Assembly: GCA_937949525.1 (NCBI GenBank)
Contig: CALEDT010000030.1
Location: 1 to 35,479 of the forward strand
Origin: an uncultured Burkholderiales bacterium
GTDB lineage: Bacteria > Pseudomonadota > Gammaproteobacteria > Burkholderiales > Thiobacillaceae
Direction of reading: 5' to 3'
Length of the DNA: 35,479 nt
Position numbers and translations under genes: made by a program. A model generated the notes under the pieces. The model was not told the DNA's origin. It ran no database searches and saw nothing but the letters and a program-made list of their open reading frames with translations. This document shows positions 19,974 to 22,546 of the stretch, piece by piece (the first letter of the stretch is position 1; every line of letters begins with the position of its first letter).

Positions 19974-21509
<1,536 letters not shown>

Positions 21510-21566
21510 GGCGTGCTCCCTTTGCAGGCACATCCGTCCGCAACCCGGACGGCGGGGTAAAGCAAC

Positions 21567-21611
21567 GGTGGTGCGCCGGACATGGCGCCACCCGCAACGG
21601 CATTACGGGTG
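21567..21611 (-). promoter_or_regulatory. Mutually exclusive hairpins of a leucine attenuator
   Basis: In the minus-strand transcript, hairpin 1 (21589-21611) pairs CACCCGTAA with TTGCGGGTG around a 5-nt loop. Hairpin 2 (21567-21592) pairs GGTGGCGCC with GGCGCACCACC (one bulged A) around a 6-nt loop. They share 21589-21592, so both cannot form fully at once. Hairpin 2 is followed by GTTGCTTT, a weak U tract, so it is the better terminator candidate. No folding program was run. Confidence 0.5.
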
Positions 21612-21634
21612 TGACAGGGGGGAGAAAAGGAGAT

Positions 21635-21718
21635 TCAGTGCCCGCGCGGGGGCAGCAGCAGCCGGGTGGCAAGCCGCATCAGGGCGTAGGGATACGAGGC
21701 GGGAGTGCGTGCGCGCAT
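21635..21718 (-). CDS. leuL: Leucine-rich leader peptide of leuA
   Basis: A 27-codon open frame upstream of leuA, running from ATG 21718 to TGA 21635. It contains five Leu codons (CTG, CTT, then CTG CTG CTG in a row near its end, RLLLPP), 18% of the peptide, placed shortly before the hairpins of the putative attenuator. This is the standard arrangement for ribosome-mediated attenuation: stalling at Leu codons in leucine shortage would favour the hairpin that allows read-through into leuA. The predicted transcription start coincides with the ATG, so translation may be leaderless; an internal ATG at codon 14 is an alternative. The symbol is used by analogy with enteric leader peptides. Confidence 0.6.
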   Translation of the reverse strand: MRARTPASYPYALMRLATRLLLPPRGH

Positions 21719-21724
21719 GGCGCG

Positions 21725-21754
21725 ACTATAACGCGCCTACGACGACGGCGGCAA
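21725..21754 (-). promoter_or_regulatory. Sigma-70 promoter for the leuA leader transcript
   Basis: TTGCCG, an 18-bp spacer and TATAGT on the minus strand, overlapping the 3' end of pssA. Transcription would start near 21718, at the leader peptide ATG. leuA therefore has its own promoter even though it follows pssA on the same strand. Confidence 0.6.
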
Positions 21755-22546
21755 GGCGGCGCTGCGCTTGCGCCGCAGGTGGCGTTGCGCCCAAAGCACG
21801 TAGCCGGACGACGCATAACCCAGGAACAGCAGGAACAGCACACTGGGCGGGTCGATCGACACCAGCGAGAACGACAGGGCCACCAGCACGATGACCACGA
21901 ACGGCACGCTGCGCTTCAGGTTGATGTCCTTGCCGCTGTAGTAGTGCAGATTGCTGATCATGCTGACGCCGGCGAACACCGTGATCGCCCACGCCAGCCA
22001 GGGCAGGTCCAGGCCGGGGATGCGGTTGTCCACCATGATCCAGACGTAACCGGCCAGCAGGGCCGCCGCCGCCGGGCTGGGCAGGCCGAGGAACCAGCGC
22101 TTGTCCTGCACCGCCAGCATGGTGTTGAAGCGCGCCAGACGCAGCGCGGCGGCGGCGCAGAACACGAAGGCAGCGATCCAGCCCAGCTTGCCCATACCCT
22201 TGAGCGCGAAGCTGTACATCACCAGGGCCGGCGCCACGCCGAACGACACCATGTCGGCGAGCGAGTCGTACTCCGCGCCGAACGCGCTTTGTGTGTTGGT
22301 CATGCGCGCCACCCGGCCGTCCAGTCCATCCAGCACCATGGCGATGAAAATGGCGATGGCCGCCTGTTCGAAGCGGCCGTTCATGGCCTGCACGATGGCG
22401 TAGAAGCCGGCGAACAGCGCACCGGTGGTGAACAGGTTGGGCAGCAGGTAGATGCCGCGTCGCGTCGGCTTGACGCTGCCGGCTTCGTCGTCGCACGGCG
22501 GCGAAGCCACCGCGTGGCGCGCGTCCGGGGCGCTATCCGACGACAT
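21737..22546 (-). CDS. pssA: CDP-diacylglycerol-serine O-phosphatidyltransferase
   Basis: A 269-residue integral membrane enzyme making phosphatidylserine from CDP-diacylglycerol and serine. The CDP-alcohol phosphotransferase motif DG-x2-AR-x8-G-x3-D-x3-D is complete, from Asp76 through Gly90 and Asp94 to Asp98, with an additional Asp73. About six to eight hydrophobic helices follow the pattern of the Bacillus-type (class II) PssA. The first 30 residues are polar and variable. It starts 3 bp after the psd stop, so substrate and next-step enzyme are made together. Length fits this subclass. Confidence 0.95.
   Translation of the reverse strand: MSSDSAPDARHAVASPPCDDEAGSVKPTRRGIYLLPNLFTTGALFAGFYAIVQAMNGRFEQAAIAIFIAMVLDGLDGRVARMTNTQSAFGAEYDSLADMVSFGVAPALVMYSFALKGMGKLGWIAAFVFCAAAALRLARFNTMLAVQDKRWFLGLPSPAAAALLAGYVWIMVDNRIPGLDLPWLAWAITVFAGVSMISNLHYYSGKDINLKRSVPFVVIVLVALSFSLVSIDPPSVLFLLFLGYASSGYVLWAQRHLRRKRSAALPPSS

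Follow-up and report, generated by a model that had tools for sequence, protein, structure and literature searches.

Genes and promoter at the leuA locus

The window, that is, the whole stretch of 35,479 nucleotides that was analysed, is one contig of a 64-contig, 2.68-Mb genome. All the features described here lie on its minus strand, where NCBIfam names the genes, in order, ilvH, ilvC, psd, pssA, and leuA; the long frame upstream of ilvH is presumably the large subunit of acetolactate synthase. The gene upstream of leuA, pssA (21737..22546 in the list of open reading frames), scores above the cutoff of TIGR00473 for CDP-diacylglycerol-serine O-phosphatidyltransferase, and leuA (19974..21509, with its ATG at 21509) scores above those of NF002087 and TIGR00973 for 2-isopropylmalate synthase. 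The Shine-Dalgarno sequence of leuA is GGGAG (21516..21520), and a motif of this type likewise precedes leuA in the relatives (76 of 77 loci).

Between the stop codon of pssA at 21737 and the start of leuA sit a promoter and a short leader frame. The scan of positions 21480-21780 returned a sole sigma-70-like site, made of TTGCCG (21749..21754), which falls within the 3' end of pssA, and TATAGT (21725..21730), separated by 18 nt; dinucleotide shuffles of this region gave a mean of 0.0 such sites (50 shuffles). Transcription is predicted to begin at or beside the ATG of the leader frame at 21718, given that TATAGT ends 6 nt upstream of it. The frame, MRARTPASYPYALMRLATRLLLPPRGH followed by a TGA stop (21637-21635), occupies 21635..21718. 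It has 27 codons, five of them for leucine, including a run of CTG CTG CTG near its end (21653..21661), and its stop lies 125 nt from leuA. The original prediction had described these elements, namely a promoter for leuA after pssA, a 27-codon frame with this leucine content, and a predicted transcription start on the leader ATG, and each of them was recovered. In the leader region no Rfam covariance model matched at the gathering score or up to an E value of 10, and four leader peptides compared with Pfam and NCBIfam were assigned to no family.

Conservation of the leader among relatives

The loci used for comparison were 80 leuA loci of named genomes, the best 80 of at least 589 relatives, together with 56 leuA loci of the window's own family (strong matches). 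A leucine-rich leader frame was found in 85 of the 126 distinct upstream regions scored, of which six to eight leaders were later excluded, five of them as doubtful. The exclusions from the counts comprise the doubtful leaders (L041, L046, L047, L065, and L069), one leader shortened by an insert (L109), loci with long or misread spacers (L212, L233, L243, and L248), loci in which the script found no in-frame pair of leucine codons (L231 and L241), and repeats of loci already in the set (L162, L163, L167, and L171); L011 and L035 were left out of the 77-locus counts, and L034, L038, L052, and L066 yielded no leuA start in one locus extraction. Removal of near-alike spacers reduced 147 loci to 133, or to 127. 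Stop codons, starts, and inserts of single loci were often read by eye.

As judged by reading, 51 of the 56 family loci keep the leader, and in a few of these it carries inserts or is poor in leucine codons; five lack it (L110, L116, L120, L127, and L150). The sequence of L116 is also that of L002, whose LeuA is the closest to that of the window among the matches listed (94%). The control exerted by the leader would be dispensable, given that this locus and four others of the family lack it. In L002/L116 and in L110 leuA follows closely behind the preceding frame, which suggests a loss of separate control. Leaders were also found in named records of Thiobacillus, Gallionella, Candidatus Nitrotoga, Sideroxydans, Aromatoleum, Pseudothauera, and Nitrosomonas, all of which we take to be betaproteobacteria. 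At the level of DNA, the leader end was recovered in 20 of 61 genomes, counting that of the window, and two genomes of the same genus share with it a match of 44 identical bases, far more than expected by chance.

The ends of the peptides vary (LLLPPRGH, LLLPCAGTR, LLLRVARTY, LLLRGAR, LLLRKQ, and LLLP) and the leucine run is retained in most. The run is conserved in the alignment of 41 sequences, in which GCTGC and one more C are invariant. Summed over five groups of relatives, the variable columns of the leader at codon positions 1, 2, and 3 number 41, 32, and 58, an excess at third positions that stems mainly from two of the five groups and for which the spacer is an uninformative control because nearly all of its columns vary. 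Alignment across relatives had been proposed as a check: the leucine codons and the frame are kept, and as for the stems, hairpin P1 (see below), which the original prediction had not described, is kept, while the two competing stems that it had drawn are not. Judged by this conservation, the leader is real, widely conserved, and not private to this genome. A direct repeat of about 60-80 nt was seen between the leucine run and the leader stop in three genomes (L094/L102 of G010, L095/L103/L114 of G019, and L097/L109 of G005); that of G010 is in tandem, and the leader remains open in L114 (46 codons) and ends early in L109.

Predicted leaderless start of the leader frame

The distance between promoter and leader was studied in a test blind to the ATG, in which the best promoter in the 170 nt ahead of the leucine run was chosen by the -35 and -10 weights alone. 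In 128 of 153 loci the next ATG lay 6-7 nt past the -10 box, and in 127 of these it was in frame and open; of random positions, 2% are followed by an in-frame ATG at 6-7 nt. The first search for leaders favoured starts near a -10 box, and its own spacing figure (64 of 77) is therefore biased; 79 of the 153 loci were originally selected with this bonus, and the other 74 came from the leader-end model alone. Among these 74, an in-frame open ATG stands at 5-9 nt in 67 and at 6-7 nt in 54, and a Shine-Dalgarno-like motif precedes the leader ATG in none of the 67. The consensus of their -10 box is TATA(T/G)T, the spacing to the -35 box is 17 nt in 59 of 74, and the commonest start of the -35 box in relatives is TTGC. 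A transcription start at the leader ATG is therefore predicted to be a conserved design. That the leader might be read without a ribosome binding site had been suggested for the window, and the conserved position of the ATG together with the lack of a Shine-Dalgarno-like motif in relatives indicates that this is probably so.

Distribution of the leader end within and beyond the order

A model of 52 positions, covering the leader end, P1, and the C tract that follows, was built from 41 loci. It finds leucine runs by design because it consists mostly of the CTG run, P1, and the C tract. The leader end of the window, which belongs to the 41 sequences behind the model, scores 44.2 bits, and the second-best site of the window reaches 10.8 bits. 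Of 200 genomes searched in the order, 141 have matches at E≤1, about half of them weak, and 75 matches in 73 genomes reach E≤0.01. All of these 75 were inspected together with 15 weaker ones, one of which is a second match in the window's own genome. A leuA gene, judged by a frame starting 20-420 nt downstream of the match, follows 70 of the 75 and 80 of the 90 inspected, and at least four of the 80 coincide with sequences used in the model. The window's own LeuA type follows 65 of the 80, and a second, leuA_yeast-like type follows 15; for the latter, the N-terminal 80 residues encoded at L187 best fit NCBIfam PRK03739 and leuA_yeast. The ten matches that do not precede leuA, all of them weak (E of 0.002 or more), were taken as chance; eight fall across long open frames and two (L228 and L240) across the ends of frames.

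At the level of the class, 274 genomes gave seven matches at E≤0.01, the window's own included. Three of the other six (L250, L251, and L254) precede leuA, and two (L252 and L255) fall within long open frames. The remaining one, L253, comes from the genus of L254 and shares its leader; its locus is short, and no LeuA frame could be made out on it. The stricter filters of the large searches miss weak matches. Judged by these matches, the element is mainly one of this order, with rare members elsewhere. The leader of L251, from another order of the same class, was read by eye to end in LLLP, with its stop codon within the loop of P1, ahead of leuA; it may stem from horizontal transfer or have an older origin.

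Hairpin P1 and the C-rich tract

The hairpin P1, UGCCC-CCGCGC-GGGCA (21639..21654), has a 5' arm that starts at the second base of the last leucine codon. All five of its pairs can form in 62 of 79 loci, compared with at most 34 at 20 other registers taken in steps of three, and in 41 aligned loci 90.7% of its cells are paired, versus 71% or less when the stem is slid. Its covariation score is 0.258, above every shuffle (0.177 in shuffles), and one pair is C-G in 16 and G-C in 16 of the 41 loci. Changes on both sides were found for one pair of the five, and neither their count nor the pair types exceed those of shuffles. Elsewhere P1 gives way to a shifted stem (CUGCUGCU/AGCAGUAG); L131, L139, L142, and L011 retain a stem whose loop contains or adjoins the stop codon; and in some loci another local hairpin is more stable than P1.

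Straight after the leader stop comes a C/U-rich, G-poor tract (21616..21634). Over relatives its composition is 43-63% C and 4-9% G at +0..+14 (77 loci), and 42-61% C and 2-10% G at +0..+15 (133 loci); its predicted mean unpaired probability at +0..+14 is 0.72-0.81 (77 loci). Unstructured RNA that is rich in C and poor in G at the end of a leader, as expected of a Rho-type leader, is what was found, though it extends over only about 15-20 nt, and a typical rut site is longer. A Rho site at the leader stop, offered here as a proposal and in line with the Rho-dependent alternative named in the original prediction, would fit this composition best, though the tract is short.

The effect of a stalled ribosome was modelled by masking the leader, with an assumed 12 nt from the A site. 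The mean accessibility of the tract fell from 0.75 to 0.67-0.70 (77 loci). With the mask at the last leucine codon (mean of 0.67) it fell by more than 0.15 in 19 of the 77 loci and rose in one, and with the mask at the two preceding leucine codons it fell in 12 and 14 and rose in none. In the window the tract goes from 0.86 to 0.69 for the last leucine codon and to 0.85 and 0.84 for the two before it. The shift is small, and in the window it is seen only for the last leucine codon. Simple occlusion of the tract gives the wrong sign, because a ribosome at the last CTG, with the 12-nt footprint, would reach only to 6 nt before the stop codon, leaving the tract uncovered, whereas a ribosome at the leader stop would cover it.

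Hairpins of the window and of the spacer

The original prediction had placed after the leucine codons two hairpins that exclude each other, the first at 21589..21611 and the second at 21568..21591. Both can be drawn and, in their full extent, have about three bases in common. The minimum-energy fold nevertheless accommodates the two next to each other (10 bp at 21611-21589, and a core of 5 bp at 21588-21573), and it is only through its outer extension that the second competes with the first. Of 15 aligned leaders, only that of the window has a segment of 36 nt (21601-21566), missing from the other 14, and this segment holds the 3' half of the first hairpin and almost the entire second one. Folding of the whole leader is no better than that of shuffles (z -0.74), 42 of 200 doing equally well, and 19 of 30 shuffles equal or beat the strongest local hairpin in the window's spacer. 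The stems looked on as an attenuator thus do not amount to a conserved switch, and as far as the aligned relatives tell they look particular to this genome. As for folding the leader with and without a paused ribosome, also proposed as a check, the whole fold is at the level of chance, and the tract becomes slightly less open when the leader is masked.

Another spacer hairpin, CCGTCCG-GGTTG-CGGACGG (21534..21552), was read by eye and has counterparts with compensating changes (CGCCC/GGGCG and CGTCC/GGACG) in several genomes of the same genus. The motif GCAGTA is enriched in the spacers (22 of 127 at +8..+47, with 0.6 expected), mostly at +14 to +26 past the leader stop, and a CACAATTCG-like sequence occurs in other spacers. 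Pairing of the leucine run with GCAGTA was considered and rejected: the duplex reaches -7.6 versus -6.6 for shuffles, the control shows a nearly equal shift (-6.4 versus -5.6), and a test on the partition function gave no effect. The sequence TATAATGCGTCGG is conserved a few tens of bases upstream of leuA in L112, L115, L117, L119, L122, L126, L130, L133, L135, L141, and L007, and may represent an additional promoter of leuA that bypasses the leader.

Proposed mechanism of leuA control

The recurrence of the leader before leuA in many relatives points to a leucine-sensing switch. A short leader rich in codons for the end product stands before a biosynthetic gene, and a hairpin overlaps the regulatory codons, P1 taking the 1:2 position of an attenuator; leader, leucine run, and P1 would be as expected for ribosome-mediated control by leucyl-tRNA. 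An intrinsic terminator with a U tract, the further mark of an attenuator, was not found at 21480-21780. Of the ribosome-mediated attenuation put forward as leuA's own control, the leucine leader and the separate promoter stand, and the classical switch between antiterminator and terminator is unsupported. The reading we favour, and consider probable from the arrangement of these elements, is a leucine-responsive, ribosome-mediated attenuation through a leaderless leader peptide whose off-switch is non-intrinsic and perhaps Rho-dependent, with the start site, the response, and the off-switch all inferred.

Classical attenuation as it was drawn originally, in which a stalled ribosome favours an antiterminator and a terminator hairpin in the spacer otherwise stops RNA polymerase, would agree with the position of P1 and with the spacers themselves, whose hairpins are stronger than those of shuffles (mean of -13.1 versus -10.3 kcal/mol over 133 loci) and rank in the top 2 of 31 in 32 of 133 loci, where about 8.6 are expected. 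The leader end also pairs with its own spacer slightly better than with others (-15.4 versus -14.9, p 0.0095, 133 loci). However, the terminator hairpin with a weak U tract that had been claimed was not confirmed, as a search of 21480-21780 returned no terminator-like site, and a U-rich tail occurs in only 5 of 77 loci, or in 15 of 132 by a looser count (at least five U in the next ten bases). The accompanying suspicion that an intrinsic terminator may not be used is thereby borne out. A fixed 2:3 partner is not apparent either, because by eye the stems of P1 are of few types and the sequences of the spacer hairpins change widely. Together with the placement of the two original hairpins largely in a segment missing from 14 relatives, and their folding no better than shuffles, this makes a classical switch quite unlikely.

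Control could instead be translational, with translation of the leader setting how far the ribosome site of leuA is hidden by the C tract, by the leucine run in the manner put forward for actinobacteria, or by another structure. The leuA start region of the window is predicted to be unpaired at 0.37 when the leader is released and at 0.47, 0.68, or 0.70 when it is masked at the last three leucine codons, and across relatives the mask at the last leucine codon raises the accessibility of the Shine-Dalgarno sequence by more than 0.15 in 12 of 77 loci and lowers it in two. One cell of the pairing grid between leader and leuA start, that of the RNA just before and into the leucine run with the Shine-Dalgarno and start region, also reaches z -2.9. 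The grid as a whole (55 loci) spans z -2.9 to +2.9 without an interpretable hot spot, however, and its row over the leucine run carries no signal for the Shine-Dalgarno region (z +0.8 and -0.7). The C tract as an anti-Shine-Dalgarno was rejected, given that it pairs with its own leuA Shine-Dalgarno worse than with permuted partners (-8.6 versus -9.7 kcal/mol, p 1.0, 77 loci), and by the partition function the leucine run pairs with the RNA beyond the tract no more than in shuffles (p 0.69). We regard translational control as rather unlikely. That the frame is a by-product, with leuA having a promoter and a 5' untranslated region with a conserved RNA hairpin and no regulatory translation, would suit P1 and the tract, which look conserved as RNA, and the loci where the stop codon lies in or at the loop. 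It is very improbable in view of the in-frame ATG that in most loci keeps a near-constant spacing to the -10 box, the leucine codons that are kept with some excess of third-position changes, and the placement before two distantly related LeuA types.

In the favoured attenuation by a leaderless leader peptide, ribosomes would start on the bare 5' AUG of the emerging RNA and trail RNA polymerase. When leucyl-tRNA is plentiful, they would complete the leader and depart, P1 would refold, and the C-rich tract would stay open, so that Rho, or another factor acting on C-rich RNA, could end transcription ahead of leuA or soon after entry into it. Under leucine shortage, a ribosome parked on the CTG run would hold P1 open, termination would be averted, and leuA would be transcribed. 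The weakest step is the block of termination by a ribosome parked upstream of the tract, for which the anatomy gives no explanation. A broader claim is put forward only tentatively, and we lean somewhat against it: that in at least one third of the sampled genomes of the order leucine is sensed by a leader with a bare 5' AUG, that a ribosome-gated C-rich site hands the RNA to Rho with no terminator/antiterminator pair, and that this leucine module stands before two kinds of leuA.

Comparison with known systems

In the leu operon of enteric bacteria, the attenuator leuL consists of a leucine-rich leader, a hairpin over the regulatory codons, and leuA downstream. The element described here shares all three, and differs in that its leader apparently has no ribosome binding site, that no intrinsic terminator was found, and that its leucine run is made of CTG. 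Rho-dependent control of the tnaC type responds to a ligand at the stop codon of the leader peptide. Unstructured C-rich RNA beside the leader stop is common to both, whereas the element at leuA would sense a scarcity of charged tRNA at codons upstream of the stop, and a role of Rho in it is a proposal.

Attenuators of proteobacteria were reportedly surveyed by Vitreschak and others in 2004. No betaproteobacterial account of this element was recognised in a literature search made mostly without subscription papers, nor in Rfam. If the favoured reading is true, leuA would be under leucine control in a large bacterial group for which the literature and Rfam searched hold no such element, and about 150 examples would form a natural series pairing a leaderless start with regulation. 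This raises the questions of why the leader peptide forgoes a ribosome binding site and of how a ribosome stalled upstream controls termination without an intrinsic terminator.

In the LEU element of Actinobacteria, an upstream frame with a leucine run precedes leuA with no apparent terminator, as here, and the run pairs with the Shine-Dalgarno box of leuA, with a pseudoknot (PMC1262725). This pairing has no counterpart signal over the leucine run at the present loci (z +0.8 and -0.7, with a neighbouring cell at -2.9). The LeuL of Campylobacter jejuni is a leader of 28 amino acids with five leucine codons at its end, located before leuABCD, and its short RNA ends behind the stop codon (PMC3847290). 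It resembles the leader of the window in having five leucine codons before leu genes, and is unlike it in that it belongs to another bacterial class and, according to the same text (PMC3847290), was sought with a ribosome binding site and uses leucine codons that are rare in its genome. The trpL attenuator of Sinorhizobium meliloti is leaderless, its RNA beginning with the ATG of the leader (PMC7298713); the codons are those of tryptophan there and of leucine here, and the 5' end that is reported for trpL is predicted for the leader of leuA.
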